A stretch of DNA of 42,914 nucleotides, taken from assembly GCA_023663725.1 (NCBI GenBank), contig JAMPGX010000023.1:1-42914 (forward strand), read 5' to 3'. Positions 29,833-38,943 of this stretch are shown in pieces. Position numbers and translations under genes: made by a program. Origin of the DNA: a bacterium (GTDB lineage Bacteria > Bacillota > Clostridia > Lachnospirales > Lachnospiraceae). Positions within the stretch are counted from its first letter, which is position 1. Each line of letters starts with the position of its first letter. The notes below the pieces were generated by a model. The model did no database searches and was not told the origin of the DNA. It saw nothing but the letters and a program-made list of their open reading frames with translations.

Positions 29833-31806
29833 TCAGTCTTCGTCATCGATCTGCTCTCCATTCAGCGCGCTGTCCATCAGGTCAAAATACTCTTCATAAT
29901 ATTCATATACGTCTTCTATGGTATAAAGCTCCTTATACACGCCATCTGGCGCGGATTGAAATACTCCAGCCTCCAGATCAGCCGTCTCCCAGAAGACCTC
30001 TGTTTCCTCGTCTATTCCACCCTCTTCGCTGTCATCGGCGCAGTAAACCCGAAGCTTGCCAAAAGGCAGGAACGATTCCTTTTTGACATCCCAGACTGCT
30101 TCCGTCACATTTGCCGCAAGAACAGGCACCAGGTAATCCTTATATGTTCTGGCCACCACAACGATGCTGTCATCCTCCACAGACACCGACAGATCCCCTT
30201 CATCCTCATAGAACAGCGCCTGACTGCTCTGAGATATCCGTTCTATTATCGTCTTCACGGTCTGCTCTCTGTCCATGAGCCCCAGCTTGTCCGCATAGTG
30301 TTCATACAGCGGCAGGGCTGTACAGTCCTCAATGGTAATATCTTCCGGGACGGAGGAAAAATCTCCCCTGACCCCATCCTTGGAAAACCACCACACCATA
30401 CTGTCGGCATCCCAGTCCGTGGACATGAACACGGTGTCGCTGGTGTCTTTGATCAAAATATCCCTGCTGCCATCTGGCTTTCTGCCGGTGAATGTGATGT
30501 AGATCGTCCCCAGAGAATAATAGTTATCCCCCACAGACTCCTGAATAAAATCGTGCAGGGGAACAACGACTTCAGGAATATATTCAGGCTTTTCCACCTC
30601 TATAATCAATGCCATTTTCCCCGCTTGAGGTCTGATCATGACAGACGAGGAACGGTCCAAAAGCCTGTCTGCAATCTCCTGCGGGAATTCGTCGGTGATT
30701 TTTTCGACTAGCTTCTGAACCATCGCCTCGACTGCGTCATCATCCCCCGTCTCCTCTTCCTCCGAAGCAGTATCTGCCCCACCGACAGGGGGAAGCTTTG
30801 TGGCTCCCTCATCGTCCAGCCGGAAAAAGATCGTGTCCTCATCAGCCACATCATAGATATAGTCCCCGATCTTCCCTTCCAATCTGGCGTTTCTGAGACA
30901 TACCACCATCCCGTCGTATCCGGCGGGCACTACTGCGAATGCATCTCCCTCCCATGTTTGAACGCCGTCCTTCCATTCGCTGAAGCCGGAACCGCTGAAT
31001 ATACTTTTACATTCTGTATAATCCTTTCCCTTGAATCGGATCGTATATAATTTTGAGTTATCTCCCCTGTCATAGACCTCGTCCCATGCCTCTGTGTCAT
31101 AATAGTTCTCGTTGCTATAGTGCACTCCGACACCGTATTTCATGGCATTTTCATCGCTGAATTCAATCTTGATATGCACCGCGCGCCACTCATAACCCTC
31201 TGTAAGCGTGTCCTCAAATATCCGGTAGTCGGAGAATGTCAGCTTTCCTACAGTGATCAGGGACTTATCCGTGGCACAGCAGGTAACGTAGTCATAGGTT
31301 TCCCCCAGCTGGGCATTGATCGCAAGCCCGTGGGCCTCGAAGGACGGCTGCAGCGGCTCCCCCTGAGTCTCTCCGCAGGCCATACAGGTCTGCGGGGCAA
31401 AATAGTCCGCCTCCTGCCAGCTGTGTCCCAGCGCCTCCCCCTGAACCTCTCCACAGACGGCGCAGGTCTGCGGCTGCGTGCAGGCCGCCTCCTGCCAGTC
31501 ATGTCCCGGCGCCTCCCCCTTGGTTTCCCCGCAGACAGTACAGGTGGAGGGATGGGTGCAGTCCCCCTCCCAGTTATGCCCCAGTGCCTCCCCCTTGGTT
31601 TCCCCGCAGGTAATACAGGTCTGGGGATGGATACAATCGGCCTTCTGCCAGCTGTGTCCCAGCGCTTCCCCCTGAACCTCTCCGCAGACGGCGCAGGTCT
31701 GCGGTTGCGTGCAGGCCGCCTCCTGCCACTCATGTTTCATATGGCATCCGGTCAGCATAATGCTGAAAACCATTGCCGCGCCTGTCACAAGTATCTTCTT
31801 TTTCAT
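29833..31806 (-). CDS. Lipoprotein with five cysteine-rich HxW...CGxxxGE repeats
   Basis: A 657-residue lipoprotein with lipobox MLTGC (Cys21). Residues 25-152 are five tandem repeats of 25-26 residues of the form H-x-W-x-x-A-x-C-x2-P-x-T-C-x2-C-G-E-x2-G-E-A-x-G. Each carries up to three cysteines and one histidine, and the fifth lacks the first cysteine. The repeats may bind zinc or be disulfide-linked modules. The rest is an unrecognised extracellular region with an acidic linker near 350 (TASEEEETGDDD) and two domains rich in beta-strand patterns. GGAGGAG lies upstream of the ATG. It is encoded upstream of the LRR lipoprotein on the same strand. The function is unknown. Confidence 0.75.
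   Translation of the reverse strand: MKKKILVTGAAMVFSIMLTGCHMKHEWQEAACTQPQTCAVCGEVQGEALGHSWQKADCIHPQTCITCGETKGEALGHNWEGDCTHPSTCTVCGETKGEAPGHDWQEAACTQPQTCAVCGEVQGEALGHSWQEADYFAPQTCMACGETQGEPLQPSFEAHGLAINAQLGETYDYVTCCATDKSLITVGKLTFSDYRIFEDTLTEGYEWRAVHIKIEFSDENAMKYGVGVHYSNENYYDTEAWDEVYDRGDNSKLYTIRFKGKDYTECKSIFSGSGFSEWKDGVQTWEGDAFAVVPAGYDGMVVCLRNARLEGKIGDYIYDVADEDTIFFRLDDEGATKLPPVGGADTASEEEETGDDDAVEAMVQKLVEKITDEFPQEIADRLLDRSSSVMIRPQAGKMALIIEVEKPEYIPEVVVPLHDFIQESVGDNYYSLGTIYITFTGRKPDGSRDILIKDTSDTVFMSTDWDADSMVWWFSKDGVRGDFSSVPEDITIEDCTALPLYEHYADKLGLMDREQTVKTIIERISQSSQALFYEDEGDLSVSVEDDSIVVVARTYKDYLVPVLAANVTEAVWDVKKESFLPFGKLRVYCADDSEEGGIDEETEVFWETADLEAGVFQSAPDGVYKELYTIEDVYEYYEEYFDLMDSALNGEQIDDED
31351..31734 (-). 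repeat. Tandem 75-78 bp coding repeats
   Basis: DNA encoding the five cysteine-rich modules. Copies 1 and 4 differ by only a few bases and one residue (HEWQ versus HDWQ), pointing to recent duplication or gene conversion. The number of copies may vary between strains. Confidence 0.8.
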
Positions 31807-32898: not shown

Positions 32899-33537
32899 CT
32901 ATATCTGCCGTCTGCGCCTCATGACAAACAGCGCTCCCACCACCAGCACAACCGCCAGCAGCAGTTGCCAGCCCTTGCCCTGCATGGTCCCTTTTGACAT
33001 GGAGAACAGACTGAATACGCCCAGCCTGCGCCCCATGCCATAGCTGGCCAGATAGTAGAGCATACAGGCCATCAGCCCTCCGGCTACGTTGCCGCTGACG
33101 CCGGAGATTGCCAGCCCCAGCGCTCCCAGCAGCGTAGCCGAACAAATGCTCCCCCATATATGGTAGGGCAACACTCTGCTCTCACCCGCTTTCATGATTC
33201 CGGTAAAGAGCAGGTTCAACAGAACCAACGCCAGTGCGCTGTACAGGAGCCTGAGCAGACACACCTGCAGATAGCTGGTCTGGCGCGCCCGCACCACATC
33301 CCGTATCTCGGGATTTTGCTCCGGCAGAAATATCGTGGCCAGCAGCGCCGGACCCACCCAGACCAGCAGCATTTCCAGCGGTCGGGCCACCGCGTCGCCC
33401 TCCAGGGAATTTAAGTTGAAGACCAGCGCTGTCAACGCCATCAGCGCCACCGCCGCCATTGCTGGCCAGGGAAACTGTCTGCGCAGATTTGTTTTCAGAA
33501 TCCCCCAAAAAGTCTCCGTTCTCACACGCATATCCAT
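32899..33537 (-). CDS. ABC-2-type transporter permease, small subunit
   Basis: A 212-residue membrane protein with about six hydrophobic segments and a basic C-terminal tail (RRRRQI). It follows a longer permease gene and an ABC ATPase gene with 1-base overlaps, so the three form one exporter. The start is either the ATG at 33537, which overlaps the upstream stop as TGATG, or the GTG at 33540; GAGGG is correctly spaced for either. It is probably the half or accessory membrane subunit. It is convergent with the tandem GNAT gene, 10 bp away, with no obvious hairpin between. Confidence 0.7.
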   Translation of the reverse strand: MDMRVRTETFWGILKTNLRRQFPWPAMAAVALMALTALVFNLNSLEGDAVARPLEMLLVWVGPALLATIFLPEQNPEIRDVVRARQTSYLQVCLLRLLYSALALVLLNLLFTGIMKAGESRVLPYHIWGSICSATLLGALGLAISGVSGNVAGGLMACMLYYLASYGMGRRLGVFSLFSMSKGTMQGKGWQLLLAVVLVVGALFVMRRRRQI

Positions 33538-34820
33538 CACCGCTCACCCTCTTTCCGTTTTTCGGCGACGCCGATCTTCACCGGTGAAAACAGCCTGCTT
33601 AACCAGGCCATACCGCCCCTCCTCTTACGTTCGTACAGCCATATGGTCAGACCCAGACAGAGCAGCGCAAGAGCCGTCAGCAATAACCGATTATACAGGA
33701 AATTGCTTTCCTGACTCTGCCAGAGGATGGTTTGGGTCAGAGAATTATGCCGTATCTGTAGCCTGAAAACTCCCACATCCCCTGTCAGTTTTGTCCCATT
33801 CAGCGATAAAAACCACCATACACATTGCAGGAAAATAGCCAACAGTGGAGAAAACAACTCTGTAAACAATATCCCGACGGCACAGACCGCCAGAATATCC
33901 GGCAGCAGCCACAGAAGCGCCATACCCAGCCCGCTGCCCCAGCCGATGCTCATCTGAGGGTACATGCCTCCCACCTTATACACCGTATAGACCAAAGTCA
34001 GCAGTACCGGAATGCTCATACAGCACACCAGCGCCAGATAGCGTGTACCCACGATCCGCACCGTAGAACTTTTTCGAGTATAGATCAGGGACTGCATACG
34101 CGCCCTCCGATCGAGCTGCCACAGGGCCGCCGCCACAAAGACAGGCATCACCGCCAGATCTATCCCCATATAGTCGCAGTGCAGCCGCAGATAGGCCTTG
34201 CCCAGTTCCCCGGGAGCCATTATAGCCTCATACTCCGCCAACGCCTCCTCATAGGTCATGGGCGCTCTGCCAAAGTAAGCGGCCAGCGAATCCCTCGCAT
34301 AGCTGCTGCCGCCGCCGATCAAAGCGTCCGCCTTCTCCATCAGCTCACAGAAACGCTCGTAAGTCAGGCTATCCGGCAGACTGTATTCGGGAAGTACCAT
34401 TCCCTGATAAAAAAACACCGGAGCGCCGTTTTCGTCCAGTCCCCCACCAGAAAATCGCGCCTCGGAAAAATCCTTAAAGCCGTCTATCTCCTCCCCTGTA
34501 AGTCCCGTTAGTTCTTCCAGGACAGAACGCATCTCCAGCCTCCTACTCTCCTTGAGGCGGACATTTTTATAGAGTCCGATGGGGTAGGCAGTATAGCTTC
34601 CGGACAGATATTCCCCCAACAGACTTTCGACCGCCGCAGGCATGATAAGCTGCGGGTCCTCCCGTATGGTCTGACCGTAATCAGCCTGGCCCGGGCTGGG
34701 TCTTGTAATCATGCGCAGATCATTACTGTACTGCGTCGTATACATCGCGAATACTGTCACCACAAACAGAACAAAGGTCATGGAGCAGACTACTTTTTTA
34801 CATTCCTTGAAAAACAACAT
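33537..34820 (-). CDS. ABC transporter membrane subunit
   Basis: A 427-residue membrane protein: one N-terminal membrane segment (about 10-28), a large extracytoplasmic domain (about 30-210), then five or six membrane segments to the basic C-terminus. This layout resembles ABC-2 type or antimicrobial-peptide-related permeases with an external sensing domain. Its ATG overlaps the stop of the ATPase gene by one base (TGATG), and the next gene overlaps likewise, showing tight translational coupling. Substrate export of a peptide or membrane-active compound is a guess from the adjacent two-component system. Confidence 0.75.
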   Translation of the reverse strand: MLFFKECKKVVCSMTFVLFVVTVFAMYTTQYSNDLRMITRPSPGQADYGQTIREDPQLIMPAAVESLLGEYLSGSYTAYPIGLYKNVRLKESRRLEMRSVLEELTGLTGEEIDGFKDFSEARFSGGGLDENGAPVFFYQGMVLPEYSLPDSLTYERFCELMEKADALIGGGSSYARDSLAAYFGRAPMTYEEALAEYEAIMAPGELGKAYLRLHCDYMGIDLAVMPVFVAAALWQLDRRARMQSLIYTRKSSTVRIVGTRYLALVCCMSIPVLLTLVYTVYKVGGMYPQMSIGWGSGLGMALLWLLPDILAVCAVGILFTELFSPLLAIFLQCVWWFLSLNGTKLTGDVGVFRLQIRHNSLTQTILWQSQESNFLYNRLLLTALALLCLGLTIWLYERKRRGGMAWLSRLFSPVKIGVAEKRKEGER

Positions 34821-35746
34821 CAGATATCACCTCCCACGATCTCGCAGCCATGCTGGTGCAGGCAGTACATATAGGCGTCCTCGCAGTTGGGCATGGCCTC
34901 TCTGACTCCGGCGGGCAGCTCGTCGGCAGCGGACAGCCCCGGCTCTTCATCCGCCAGAAAGCGCACCGTCACCGTGTGCTCGCTGCGCAGCATACCAGTC
35001 ACGATAAAATCCCGTTTTACCCTGGCCAGCAGATTTGCCGGAACCTCCGCCGTATATACCTTGCCTCTGGCGTTCTCCAACAGCTCCGTCACCGTCCCGC
35101 TCCACAACAGCTCCCCGTCATTTAATATGGCGATATTCTCACAGGTGGCTTCTATATCTCCCACTATATGGGTAGACAGGATCACAATGCGCTCCTCGGC
35201 CACCTCACAGAGCAAATTGCGAAAACGAATCCTCTCCTCCGGGTCCAGCCCTGCCGTGGGCTCATCCACGATCAGCACTCTGGGGTCGTGAAGCAGGGCC
35301 TGGGCAATGCCCAGCCTCCGTTTCATACCGCCGGAGAGACTCTTTACCCTGCTCCTCTTTTTTTCGGTCAGATTGACCCGCTTGAGCAGCATGCCGATCC
35401 GCTTCTGTCGCAGGGCCTTGGGCATCCCCGACAACATCCCCAGATAGTCCAGACACTCATAGACCGTCATATTGGGATACATGGAAAAATCCTGGGGCAG
35501 ATATCCGGTGATACTGCGAATCTCCCTGGCATGGCTGATGGGAATGCCGCACACGGATATCTCCCCCGCCTGCTTTTCATGCAGTGTGACCAGCGTTTTC
35601 ATCAGCGTGGTTTTGCCCGCGCCGTTCCTTCCCAGCAGTCCGAACATGCCCTGCTCGATATTCAGACTCACATCCTTCAAAGCCTGCTTTTTGCCATAGT
35701 ACTTATCCACATGGCTGATAATGATGCAATTATCCTTTTGGTTCAT
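34820..35746 (-). CDS. ABC transporter ATP-binding protein
   Basis: A 308-residue ATPase energising the two following membrane subunits. Walker A is GRNGAGKT (39-46), Q-loop Gln85 (YLPQDF), signature LSGGM (137-141), Walker B VLIVDE (157-162) and the H-loop STHIV. The C-terminal 90 residues are a domain typical of ABC-2 exporters such as bacitracin or lantibiotic-type systems. The gene is preceded by a hairpin and by the same 19-base box found in front of the response regulator gene, so its expression is probably under that regulator. Confidence 0.92.
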   Translation of the reverse strand: MNQKDNCIIISHVDKYYGKKQALKDVSLNIEQGMFGLLGRNGAGKTTLMKTLVTLHEKQAGEISVCGIPISHAREIRSITGYLPQDFSMYPNMTVYECLDYLGMLSGMPKALRQKRIGMLLKRVNLTEKKRSRVKSLSGGMKRRLGIAQALLHDPRVLIVDEPTAGLDPEERIRFRNLLCEVAEERIVILSTHIVGDIEATCENIAILNDGELLWSGTVTELLENARGKVYTAEVPANLLARVKRDFIVTGMLRSEHTVTVRFLADEEPGLSAADELPAGVREAMPNCEDAYMYCLHQHGCEIVGGDI

Positions 35747-35766
35747 GATCTGTCATCCTCCAATCC

Positions 35767-35794
35767 AAAAATGGTGTGGATCCCTCCACACCAT
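35767..35794 (-). terminator. Hairpin with T tract between the histidine kinase and ABC genes
   Basis: On the minus strand a perfect 10-bp stem, ATGGTGTGGA / TCCACACCAT, with a 4-base loop is followed by TTTTTGG. It can terminate the two-component transcript before the ABC genes. It also covers the place where a -10 element for the ABC promoter would be expected, so it may act as an attenuator. Confidence 0.7.
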
Positions 35795-35810
35795 CAGCCT
35801 ACCGCACATC

Positions 35811-35829
35811 TATCAACTTTTTATCTACT
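35811..35829 (-). promoter_or_regulatory. Predicted response-regulator box upstream of the ABC operon
   Basis: AGTAGATAAAAAGTTGATA on the minus strand, identical over 19 bases to the box in front of the regulator's own gene (37916-37934). It contains GTAGATA and GTTGATA, 11 bp apart as expected for tandem OmpR/PhoB-type binding. Its end supplies a TTGATA -35-like element. A matching -10 17 bases on is poor (TGGTGT), consistent with activation being needed. It overlaps the last codons of the kinase gene. Confidence 0.65.
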
Positions 35830-37161
35830 CTGAGTCATCTTATCTATATTTTTTGAACCGAGCCTGAAGCGGGCCGTCACCCGCCCGCCGCGGACCGCGT
35901 TGGACAGCGCCAGACTGCCGCCGCACCTGGCGCAGATCAGGCGGCAAATATATAATCCCAGGCCAAAGTGGAACTGCTCCATCTGTCCCTCTCCCCGGTA
36001 AAACGGGTCCGCCGCATGCTGCAGATCATCCGGACTAAAACCGACGCCGTCATCCTCCACCGTGATCTCCAGATACCTCTCCGACTCCTCCTGAGACGTT
36101 AGCCGCTCTCCCTCCGCCACCTGCACCGTCACCAGTAGACGCTCCCTGGCATAGCGAACTGCGTTGGACACCAGATTTTCACACACCTCCAGCACCAGCG
36201 CCTCATCCAGACACAGGATTCCCTCTCCATCAAAAGAAAAGGAGATGTCTATCTGCGCCTGCCCCAATATTTCACACATGTTTCTGAGCTTCTCGCGCAG
36301 TTCCGATGCCTTTACCGGCGCTGTCTCCGGCTCCAGATCTTCCAGCTTCCGGATGCTGCTCATCTTCTGCGTATAGCTCTCCAGCCTGCGTATCTGCCCG
36401 TTCATCATCCCCAGTATCTCCAAGAGCTTGTCCTGCGATATCCTGCCCTCCGGCACATACCGCTCCAGCATCTCCCCATAGCCCTTCAGCACGGTGATAG
36501 GAGTGCGCATGTCGTGGGCAAAAGCGGCGTTCAGCCTCTTCCTCTCCTCCAATTGCTGCCAGGTGGAACGATTGTTCTGATACAGCGCTGTCCGCATCTT
36601 CTCAAAGCCGTTCCGCAGTTGTCCCAGCTCATTGTCCTTCACCGGCTCCAGTTCAAAATCCAGGCAGTTGTCCGCAATCTTCTCCGATGCCTCCCGCAAT
36701 ACCCGAAGAGGCTTTTCTATCTCCCTCTTGTAAAATATCCACACTGTCACTCCCACACAGGCCAGGATCCACAGCGGGATCAGGATAAACTGGGAAGAGC
36801 TGATCGCCTCGTAGATTATTTTTTGTGGTGAATTCAACTTGTCCCCATTATATGCTATATGCTCTTCTCCCTTATAAGAGTGATGCAAATATCCGTCCGG
36901 ATCTACATAGAGCTCGTAACCGCCATCCCAGATGCGAACACTCCCGTCCATATATTTTGAAGAAAACCAGTCCTGCACATAATTGGTTCCTATCCCGATC
37001 GCCATGGTTCCCAGCCATGCCAGTACCGCGCAGATCGGGATACAGTAATACAGAACATGCCGCAGAGACCTGCGCCGTTTCCGCCGCCAGAGATGGCGCA
37101 GTCCCCGCTTTCCGGCATACACGGTCTGAGCTTCCCTGCCTGCTTCTCTCATTTCTTCCAT
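35821..37161 (-). CDS. Membrane sensor histidine kinase
   Basis: A 446-residue kinase. It has a basic cytoplasmic N-terminus, TM1 (about 35-58), an extracytoplasmic loop of 65 residues, TM2 (about 124-144), HAMP-like linker, HisKA with His216 (FAHDMRTPITVLKGYGEM), and a HATPase domain with ENLVSNAVRYA, VEDDGVGF and FGLGLYICR. It partners the response regulator encoded just upstream. Two starts are possible: the ATG at 37161 inside the regulator's 3' end, or the ATG at 37152 that overlaps its stop as ATGA. The short loop suggests sensing near the membrane, possibly through the ABC exporter encoded next. Confidence 0.93.
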   Translation of the reverse strand: MEEMREAGREAQTVYAGKRGLRHLWRRKRRRSLRHVLYYCIPICAVLAWLGTMAIGIGTNYVQDWFSSKYMDGSVRIWDGGYELYVDPDGYLHHSYKGEEHIAYNGDKLNSPQKIIYEAISSSQFILIPLWILACVGVTVWIFYKREIEKPLRVLREASEKIADNCLDFELEPVKDNELGQLRNGFEKMRTALYQNNRSTWQQLEERKRLNAAFAHDMRTPITVLKGYGEMLERYVPEGRISQDKLLEILGMMNGQIRRLESYTQKMSSIRKLEDLEPETAPVKASELREKLRNMCEILGQAQIDISFSFDGEGILCLDEALVLEVCENLVSNAVRYARERLLVTVQVAEGERLTSQEESERYLEITVEDDGVGFSPDDLQHAADPFYRGEGQMEQFHFGLGLYICRLICARCGGSLALSNAVRGGRVTARFRLGSKNIDKMTQSR

Positions 37162-37820
37162 CTATATCCCATCCCCCACACTGTCTCCAGATGATATTCC
37201 TCGCCATATTCCTTGAGCTTGGCCCGTATCCGGCGCACATGCTCCGCCACCACACTGCTGTCCCCCTCTGCGTCATAGCCCCAGAGCTTCTCATAGATCC
37301 TCTCCTTGTCAAAGACCTGCCCCGGATGCAGCGACAGCAGCTCGATTATCTCGTATTCTTTTTTCGCGAAAGGGATCACCGGCCCCTCCACCGCCACTGT
37401 CCTGGCGGTATAATCTATGACCATCCTTCCCCAGAACCGCACGTTGGCGTCCGCCTTACAGCGATGCTCCCGACGGATATGAGCCGCTACTCTGGCACCC
37501 AGCTCCTCCATGGAAAAGGGCTTCTGGATATAGTCGTCTCCTCCCGCCGCAAAGCCCTGTATCTTGTCGCTGTCCTCCACCCGCGCCGTCAGGAACAGGA
37601 TGGGGCAGGAGACATAATCCCGTATCCTGCGGCACACCGCCAGACCGTCCATATGAGGCATATTGATATCCAGCAGGATCAGGTCCGGCTGCTTGAGGGC
37701 CAATTCCAGCGCCTTTTCCCCGCTGCCGGCCGTCAACGTCTCATAGCCGTTTAACTCGAAATAGTCTTTGATCATGCTGACCACATCCGGCTCGTCGTCC
37801 ACAATCAGTATCTTATGCAT
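37149..37820 (-). CDS. OmpR/PhoB-family response regulator
   Basis: A 223-residue regulator. The receiver domain has the acidic pair Asp8-Asp9, phospho-acceptor Asp51 (LILLDINMPHMDG), Thr78 and Lys100 (YIQKPFS). A winged-helix DNA-binding domain follows (about 128-222) with VFDKERIYEKLWGYDAEGDSSVVAEHVRRIRAKL as the recognition region. It is predicted to bind the 19-base direct-repeat box in front of its own gene and in front of the ABC genes. The kinase gene overlaps its 3' end. Promoter elements are seen at 37893-37921. Confidence 0.95.
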   Translation of the reverse strand: MHKILIVDDEPDVVSMIKDYFELNGYETLTAGSGEKALELALKQPDLILLDINMPHMDGLAVCRRIRDYVSCPILFLTARVEDSDKIQGFAAGGDDYIQKPFSMEELGARVAAHIRREHRCKADANVRFWGRMVIDYTARTVAVEGPVIPFAKKEYEIIELLSLHPGQVFDKERIYEKLWGYDAEGDSSVVAEHVRRIRAKLKEYGEEYHLETVWGMGYRWKK

Positions 37821-37892
37821 AAAAAGATTCCGCCTTTCCCGTTATCTGTCCTCGGGCCCTCGCCAACCGGCAAGTTCCGCGGCCCTTCACTC

Positions 37893-37934
37893 AGCATAAC
37901 AGTATAAGGCGGAAATATCAACTTTTTATCTACT
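37893..37934 (-). promoter_or_regulatory. Promoter and regulator box of the two-component operon
   Basis: The box AGTAGATAAAAAGTTGATA (37934-37916) ends in the -35 element TTGATA. A 17-bp spacer and TATGCT as -10 (37898-37893) follow, with transcription predicted to start near 37886. The same box precedes the ABC operon, supporting autoregulation plus exporter control. Confidence 0.7.
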
Positions 37935-37943
37935 TTTCATGGC

Positions 37944-38861
37944 TTATAGCTGTCTGGACACGATATTGTTGCCGTCGATCTGTACTCCCTCGATGCTGCT
38001 CACATAGCGGGACAGACGAGCATAGCCGTAATCCTTGTACTTAAAATCCGGAAATTGCTCATGGAGCTGCTGTCCCAGAATCTCCAACTTAATACGCTGC
38101 TCCGCCCTGCGGATTATAAACTGCTGCACATTGGTCTCCATATTGACAGGCACACCCTGACCGCCCCTCACGACCAGGATCGTGGTACCCTGCTTGACGA
38201 TCTTGAACTTGGTTGCCTCGGTGATGAATTTCATCATGGAGCTATAGCCGTAATTGCGCTCGTCAAAATCGGGATAGAGCCTCTGCAGATTGCTCTTGAC
38301 CATCCCCAGATTGGCGGGCTCTCCATTGTTCTCGCACTCCTGCAGCAGATTATTGATCGCGGACTTGATCTCCCCGATGGGTGTAATCGAATCCTTCTCC
38401 ACCACGGGCTTGTCCCCCTTGGACTCGTCATCCACAATCTTGTCCAGGAATTTATACTCGTCGCAGACGGCGATAAAGGTCTTGGAGGCGTCGCTCTTGC
38501 CCATGCCGATCACGGACTTGCCCTCCTCGCGCAGACGGCTCACCAGACGGGTGAAATCGCTGTCCGAGGTCACGATACAGAAGCCGTCTATGCTGCCCTT
38601 GTACAAGATATCCATGGCGTCGATGACCAACATGATATCCGCCGCATTCTTGGCCGTGGAGTAACGGGACTGCTGTATGGGCACGATGGCGTACTTGAGC
38701 GCTTTCTTGTTCCAACTGTCCAGCGTTGGATTCGTAAAGTCCCCATACATCCTCTGATATGTGATAATCCCGTATTTTTTTAACTCGCTGATGATCACAT
38801 CCACATATTTGGAACTGGTATTCTCCGCGTCGATGAGCAGCGCATATTTTCTCTCTTCCAT
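37944..38861 (-). CDS. NYN-domain RNase-like protein with two OST-HTH/LOTUS domains
   Basis: A 305-residue cytoplasmic protein. The N-terminal NYN (LabA/DUF88-like, PIN-type) nuclease fold has acidic residues in LIDAEN (Asp11), ADIMLVIDAMD and VTSDSDF that can bind metal. Two C-terminal LOTUS/OST-HTH modules follow: one at about 158-227 (IGEIKSAINNLLQ...DERNYGYSSMMKFI) and one at about 245-300 (ILGQQLHEQFPDFKYKDYGYARLSRYV). LOTUS domains bind RNA, so a role in RNA cleavage or turnover is likely. The ATG at 38861 has GGGAG eight bases upstream. An extended -10 promoter lies about 80 bases upstream. Confidence 0.85.
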   Translation of the reverse strand: MEERKYALLIDAENTSSKYVDVIISELKKYGIITYQRMYGDFTNPTLDSWNKKALKYAIVPIQQSRYSTAKNAADIMLVIDAMDILYKGSIDGFCIVTSDSDFTRLVSRLREEGKSVIGMGKSDASKTFIAVCDEYKFLDKIVDDESKGDKPVVEKDSITPIGEIKSAINNLLQECENNGEPANLGMVKSNLQRLYPDFDERNYGYSSMMKFITEATKFKIVKQGTTILVVRGGQGVPVNMETNVQQFIIRRAEQRIKLEILGQQLHEQFPDFKYKDYGYARLSRYVSSIEGVQIDGNNIVSRQL

Positions 38862-38943
38862 TTCTAAACTCCCATCTGCCCTCATTTTATACTCACTGAC
38901 AGCTTCACCTTCAGGGTCAGATTCTCGGTGGTGTCTACTTCAG

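Follow-up and report, generated by a model that had tools for sequence, protein, structure and literature searches.

Most bacteria carry many OmpR-type response regulators. At the class II promoters controlled by PhoB, the pho box is a direct repeat with an 11-bp period, which lies at the place of a -35 and at a fixed distance before the -10. In BceRS-BceAB and LanFEG-type modules, the two-component genes are neighbours of an ABC exporter, which is probably under their control. In the late genes of phage T4 and in IS10 and IS50, read-through RNA folds over the ribosome site, and RNA from the own promoter does not. According to the available part of a report on Clostridioides difficile, the regulator RR_1586 recognizes an 11-bp direct repeat with the consensus DRTTAAGNWWW occurring twice, binds at its own operon at a site lying partly inside coding sequence, and has a predicted regulon of many genes (PMC6222199). 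For tufB-secE of Salmonella, the accessible portion of the paper describes a terminator of one operon that overlaps the promoter of the next (PMC7055797). Operon concatenation is discussed in the available part of a further paper, where the word terminator is absent (PMC8046335).

The locus described here lies in a 42,914-nucleotide stretch of Lachnospiraceae DNA (contig JAMPGX010000023.1 of assembly GCA_023663725.1), which was analysed as a whole and is called the window. A sequence-only reading had claimed that the same 19-base box stands twice in it, reading with the genes, and exact copies of the 19-mer AGTAGATAAAAAGTTGATA were indeed located before a response regulator and before an ABC exporter, both on the minus strand, which is the gene strand (Table 1). 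The direct repeat was also borne out as it had been described, with two TWGAW half-sites and an 11-bp period (GTAGATA-AAAA-GTTGATA). Two head-to-tail half-sites with this period, a trait of OmpR/PhoB-type operators, were found at both window sites and in relatives. No third copy with up to 3 mismatches was found in the window or in the 3,626,547-base genome (49 contigs), where a reversed control pattern gave 2 matches within 3 mismatches. The box is thus not scattered over the genome. By a first-order Markov estimate from the window composition, 8e-6 exact copies would be expected per genome. The distance from the end of box 1 to the regulator start codon is 95 bp, and that from the end of box 2 to the start of the ATPase gene is 64 bp. 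Box 2 overlaps the 3' end of the kinase gene with its final codons and stop (TAA, 35821-35823), and the flanking sequence differs between the two copies. Judging from these sequences and those of relatives, we put at roughly 80% the probability that the box is the operator of the regulator encoded between its copies, that the regulator activates both promoters, and that a hairpin insulates the exporter from read-through.

Table 1. Positions of the boxes, genes and predicted promoter and hairpin elements of the locus in the window
Feature	Position	Strand	Remark
Box 1, operator copy before response regulator	37916..37934	-	two TWGAW half-sites; predicted
Probable -10 (TATACT), regulator-kinase promoter	37901..37906	-	9 bp after box 1
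Response regulator, receiver domain + OmpR/PhoB-type winged helix	37149..37820	-	recognition helix SSVVAEHVRRIR
Histidine kinase (HAMP, HisKA, HATPase_c)	35821..37161	-	
Box 2, operator copy before exporter	35811..35829	-	predicted
Probable -10 (TAGGCT), exporter promoter	35796..35801	-	9 bp after box 2
Terminator-like hairpin + short T run	35770..35795	-	starts directly after -10; predicted
Exporter ABC transporter ATPase	34820..35746	-	
Exporter membrane protein 1 (homologues of ABC-2 type)	33537..34820	-	
Exporter membrane protein 2	32899..33540	-	in many related loci, homologues lie next to membrane protein 1

The genes follow each other on the minus strand in the order OmpR-type response regulator, HAMP histidine kinase, ABC ATPase and two membrane proteins. 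The regulator matched PF00072 with 102 bits and PF00486 (Trans_reg_C) with 76.7 bits, both above the cut-off, which places it in the OmpR/PhoB family. Neither membrane protein of the window had a Pfam match. Among 24 homologues of membrane protein 1, 16 contained ABC2_membrane_3, for which the window's own protein gave no match. The structure model of membrane protein 1 (mean pLDDT 84.3) gave no match at E <= 0.001 against the PDB; several ABC-2 type exporters, e.g. NosY and PmtCD, were among its weak top rows, and a PDB sequence search with this protein returned nothing at E <= 1. By its homologues, the pump belongs with the ABC-2 exporters; as suggested in the sequence-only reading, it may act in a membrane-stress or peptide-resistance response.

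The locus resembles BceRS-BceAB and LanFEG in that the two-component genes adjoin an ABC exporter which they probably control. It differs from them in its membrane proteins, to which no FtsX domain is assigned because they lack any Pfam match, and in its ATPase, which falls below the cut-off of the LanFEG model. A BceRS-BceAB module, marked by an FtsX-domain permease, was therefore rejected, the homologues of membrane protein 1 being of ABC-2 type, and so was a LanFEG lantibiotic-protection exporter (ATPase 149.9 bits vs the TIGR03740 cut-off of 309.75). A defence-system reading was also dropped; PADLOC matched the ABC ATPase alone, in our interpretation via its ATPase domain. No known RNA family was matched in Rfam at E <= 1 within 35600-38050. 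Upstream of box 1, a gene at 37944-38885 encodes an NYN domain together with OST-HTH/LOTUS domains, and its stop codon lies ~10 bp before the box. At 29833-31806 a 657-aa protein is encoded, the N-terminal part of which carries tandem copies of the cysteine-rich motif C..PQTC..CGE..GEALGH.

Both window sites and most relatives share a -10 of the form TANNNT, which begins 9 bp beyond the box, and the box therefore stands at the place of a -35. The same 9-bp distance, as expected of a class II promoter, was found at both window sites and at most sites of the loci with a V..[A/G] recognition helix. The TAGGCT of the window is a weak -10. It had been claimed that TTGATA, at the end of the box, forms the -35 in both places. 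A TTGATA-17-TATGCT match was present at site 1 only, and relatives share the -10 at 9 bp after the box, by which this assignment was ruled out. In repeat period, position at the -35 place and fixed distance to the -10, the window sites are like the pho box of PhoB; the half-site sequence is another one, and activation would here be an extension of the likeness. RR_1586, as far as the available part of its report goes, is likewise an OmpR-family regulator with an 11-bp direct repeat and a site at its own operon partly in coding sequence. It differs in the half-site and in having a predicted regulon of many genes, whereas the box has only two genomic sites, at which binding is predicted.

A search with membrane protein 1 gave matches in 36 of 299 family genomes, the window's own included. 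Forty regions were compared, and the five proteins and the box were placed in them. Thirty of the regions surround matches of membrane protein 1, covering 29 of the 35 genomes besides the window's own, and ten surround matches of the box. The box type was found on the gene strand in the window and at ten loci (L062, L063, L064, L085, L086, L092-L096). It stood at both places in 8 of these 11 loci; L086 and L096 had it before the exporter only, and L062 ends before the regulator. Conservation at orthologous loci, proposed in the sequence-only reading as a check, was thus observed, with the same positions and orientation.

When the plain 19-mer was searched family-wide with 2 mismatches, 47 places were obtained vs 39 for the reversed control by our own count, which is hardly above control. 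Fourteen of the 47 sit at regulator/exporter loci; of the other 33, five were inspected (G182, G024:C43, G015, G093:C26, G064:C33) and none was at an orthologous locus. A better pattern combined a degenerate box with a TANNNT -10 at fixed distance, one mismatch being allowed, and was run on 397 family genomes. The shared -10 had been derived from a side-by-side comparison of sites, from which the regulator site of L063 departs. This pattern gave 32 places in 19 of the 397 genomes and the reversed control gave 5. Of the 32 places, 29 lie on the gene strand of regulator/exporter loci, which come from 17 genomes and 15 genera, and three lie off such loci (G242:C23, G252, G297). Eighteen of the 29 come from loci used to write the pattern; among the places outside these source loci, 11 of 14 are at regulator/exporter loci, one of the 11 having already appeared in the plain 19-mer search.

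In the loci with a V..[A/G] helix (n=23), a site scoring <=3 was present in 16/23 regulator-upstream and 17/22 kinase-downstream regions, leaving 7/23 and 5/22, respectively, without a good site. Two loci, L102 and L103, were examined from at least 80 listed in a contig scan. L102, from a Ruminococcus MAG, has the order ABC-P1-P2-RR-HK, with a box showing 2 departures from the consensus before ABC. At L094, L095, L096, L103 and L209, a like regulator and the box were found beside an ABC ATPase of only ~40% identity, and the operator therefore goes with the regulator and not with one pump. Two loci look broken, L213 (G029:C50), where the regulator match ends early, and L214 (G338:C42), where the kinase match is split; the box before the regulator is kept in both.

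The group of loci is common in the family, as 89 of 397 genomes contain a match to the regulator profile A1 (E <= 1e-78). The analysis covered the loci compared above and 80 further regulator loci taken from these matches. Of the 127 loci entered, 8 were dropped for want of a usable regulator match (L062, L065, L072, L076, L080, L211, L212, L213), leaving 119, and 4 of these lacked the kinase end, leaving 115 kinase-downstream regions. L261 and L296, in which the helix was unreadable, were left out of the helix analysis. Operators were collected by a rule blind to the base after the half-site core (two TWGA 11 bp apart with <=1 mismatch in all, and TANNNT at fixed distance). Matches were obtained in 63/119 regulator-upstream and 77/115 kinase-downstream regions, and in 2/115 control stretches, each of 300 bp and taken from within the kinase gene.

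The base after TWGA was found to follow the helix residue before E-H. With A, G or V at this residue, the base was T or A in 73 of 78 half-sites; with M it was G in 76/77, with K it was C in 26/27, and with T the bases were mixed (G 35, T 15, C 3, A 2; n=55). Base 2 of TWGA also tracks a helix residue, A going with I in 50/51 and T with T in 75/77. At 26 loci the helix has E-L instead of E-H, and 21 of these are without the TWGA operator type; in eight E-L loci inspected by eye, including L274, TTG[T/C]-type repeats were seen before at least one gene. For the helix positions touching DNA in PhoB, we relied on what we take to be the established contacts. On a receiver-domain tree, a single independent pair was found for K; for A/G/V vs T/M there were 4, of which 2 were supported. 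These are too few for a test, so that shared ancestry can explain much of the association. The association points to a tie between the encoded regulator and the box, though the independent changes are few. The proposal that the two-component system controls itself and the exporter is thereby supported in part, together with the recurrence; its TTGATA -35 part was not supported.

The window's own genome encodes a paralogous regulator with an E-L helix (L274, G000:C2), and a different repeat was seen by eye before its downstream gene. In G022, of the window's genus, three paralogous systems on C40, C95 and C77 (L064, L209 and L239) have the helices VVAEH, VVTEH and TVMEH and different operators.

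If the encoded regulator does bind the box, it might still repress one or both promoters instead of activating them. A regulator sitting over the -35 region could block the polymerase, and the TTGATA-17-TATGCT promoter match overlaps the box at site 1. However, the conserved 9-bp spacing leaves no independent -35 at site 2, as for an activated promoter, and we regard repression as unlikely. Control of both operons by a different regulator that binds the box is about half as probable as repression, in spite of the many OmpR-type candidates in family genomes; the box is absent elsewhere in the genome, it recurs with orthologues of the encoded regulator, half-site base and helix residue go together, and the paralogue L274 has another helix and another repeat.

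The identity of the two boxes could also be due to chance or to a recent duplication without function, as AT-rich 19-mers within 2 mismatches do occur at many unrelated places in the family. Against this stand the minute number of exact copies expected per genome, the unlike flanks of the two copies, and the repeated finding of the box at both places in 15 genera at a fixed distance from the -10, which already contradicts such an origin; we give it almost no weight. Activation of both promoters by the encoded regulator is retained as the preferred reading.

In the window, an 11-pair hairpin ending in a short T tail is predicted directly after the -10 of the exporter promoter (-17.7 kcal/mol, z -4.2), and the expected transcript start falls in its left arm. 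A simple terminator scan of the region gave 1 site vs a shuffle mean of 0.9, which is not above chance by itself. Among 77 exporter promoters, a terminator-like hairpin was located over the expected start in 38, upstream of the box in 12 and elsewhere in 2, and 25 had none. With a stricter cut (-10 kcal/mol), the hairpin overlapped the -10 or the start in 33 of 71 unique exporter promoters, and none of the 58 unique regulator promoters had one by this cut. When the exporter promoters were shuffled with their dinucleotides preserved, the mean over 20 rounds was 0.35 hairpins and the maximum was 1. A terminator-like hairpin overlapping the promoter or start was found both in the window, where it lies directly after the -10, and at those 33 promoters.

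In 21 of the 33, the left arm begins exactly at the second base of the -10. The third -10 base is paired in these as C-G (11), T-A (7) or A-T (3), the fourth as A-T (19) or G-C (2), and the fifth as C-G (17) or A-T (4). Because the hairpins were picked for pairing, only the variety of the pairs counts; five distinct combinations of -10 and right arm were seen in hairpins with the left arm in the -10. By reading, a GGAG-like ribosome site lies in the right arm, with an ATG immediately behind the T run, in 18 of the 33 (22 by a looser automatic count). This arrangement, with the -10 in or next to the left arm, was observed at L266 as well as L089, L237-L239, L246, L250, L259, L262 and L264, and likewise at L269, L270, L277, L282, L283, L287, L291 and L298. 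With transcripts taken to start 7 nt downstream of the -10, the mean fold was -2.3 kcal/mol vs -16.0 for the whole hairpin. The same comparison for the window gave -7.3 vs -15.9 kcal/mol; the window RNA still folds at -7.3, and the effect would therefore be weaker there. The kinase stop codon is overlapped by the operator in 33 of 77 loci. The window is a mild form of this arrangement, with the stop codon in the box, the hairpin just after the -10 and the ribosome site outside the hairpin.

In the preferred reading, the phosphorylated regulator would bind as a head-to-tail pair on the two TWGAW half-sites 11 bp apart and, in place of a -35, would recruit RNA polymerase. Positive autoregulation of the regulator-kinase operon would result from box 1, and box 2 would give the ABC exporter a separate drive. 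The hairpin, lying over the beginning of the exporter promoter, would end transcripts that run on from the regulator-kinase operon, and the exporter would therefore rely mainly on box 2. With such a hairpin over its promoter, the exporter probably depends on its own box. Binding, the need for phosphorylation, activation rather than repression, and termination are what we infer from these sequence features.

More tentatively, and at a little under even odds, a stretch of ~75 bp may fuse the kinase stop, operator, -10, terminator, ribosome site and start codon, and a recognition code may insulate paralogues. In the fused element, the left arm of the terminator would begin inside the -10, the ribosome site would lie in the right arm, and the start codon would follow the T run. 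In RNA that reads through from the regulator operon, the hairpin would fold, ending transcription and masking the ribosome site. A transcript started at the exporter promoter itself would lack much of the left arm and escape both termination and the hiding of the ribosome site, and the exporter would therefore strictly need the activated regulator. The code, by which A/G/V, M or K in the helix selects T/A, G or C after TWGA, would insulate paralogous copies from each other.

Such an element would be like the T4, IS10 and IS50 cases in that the ribosome site is proposed to be hidden in read-through RNA alone. It would be unlike them in its combination with a terminator, and the ribosome site lies inside the hairpin in relatives and not in the window. 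As far as the accessible portion of the tufB-secE paper allows a comparison, a terminator, or here a terminator-like hairpin, reaches into the following operon's promoter in both; the present one differs in standing beside the operator of a regulator, and its left arm starts inside the -10 in 21 relatives. No case of ribosome-site hiding in read-through RNA, and no prior report of the box or the fused element, was found among the open-licence PMC papers listed. A literature search with the box sequence as a string gave nothing related.

The box, to which binding is inferred, is a new operator and belongs to the known PhoB/OmpR kind; its operator, promoter and terminator overlap in an unusual way. 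The principle of regulation is known, and the new details are the sequence of the box and the stop signal for transcription with which it overlaps. These results offer an operator, a promoter spacing and a recognition rule for regulator loci that are common in the family. If true, the recognition rule would make it possible to predict regulons from sequence for bacteria that are not easily manipulated. By overlapping operator, -10 and terminator, such a locus would protect a target operon, in little space, against read-through from the operon of its own regulator.
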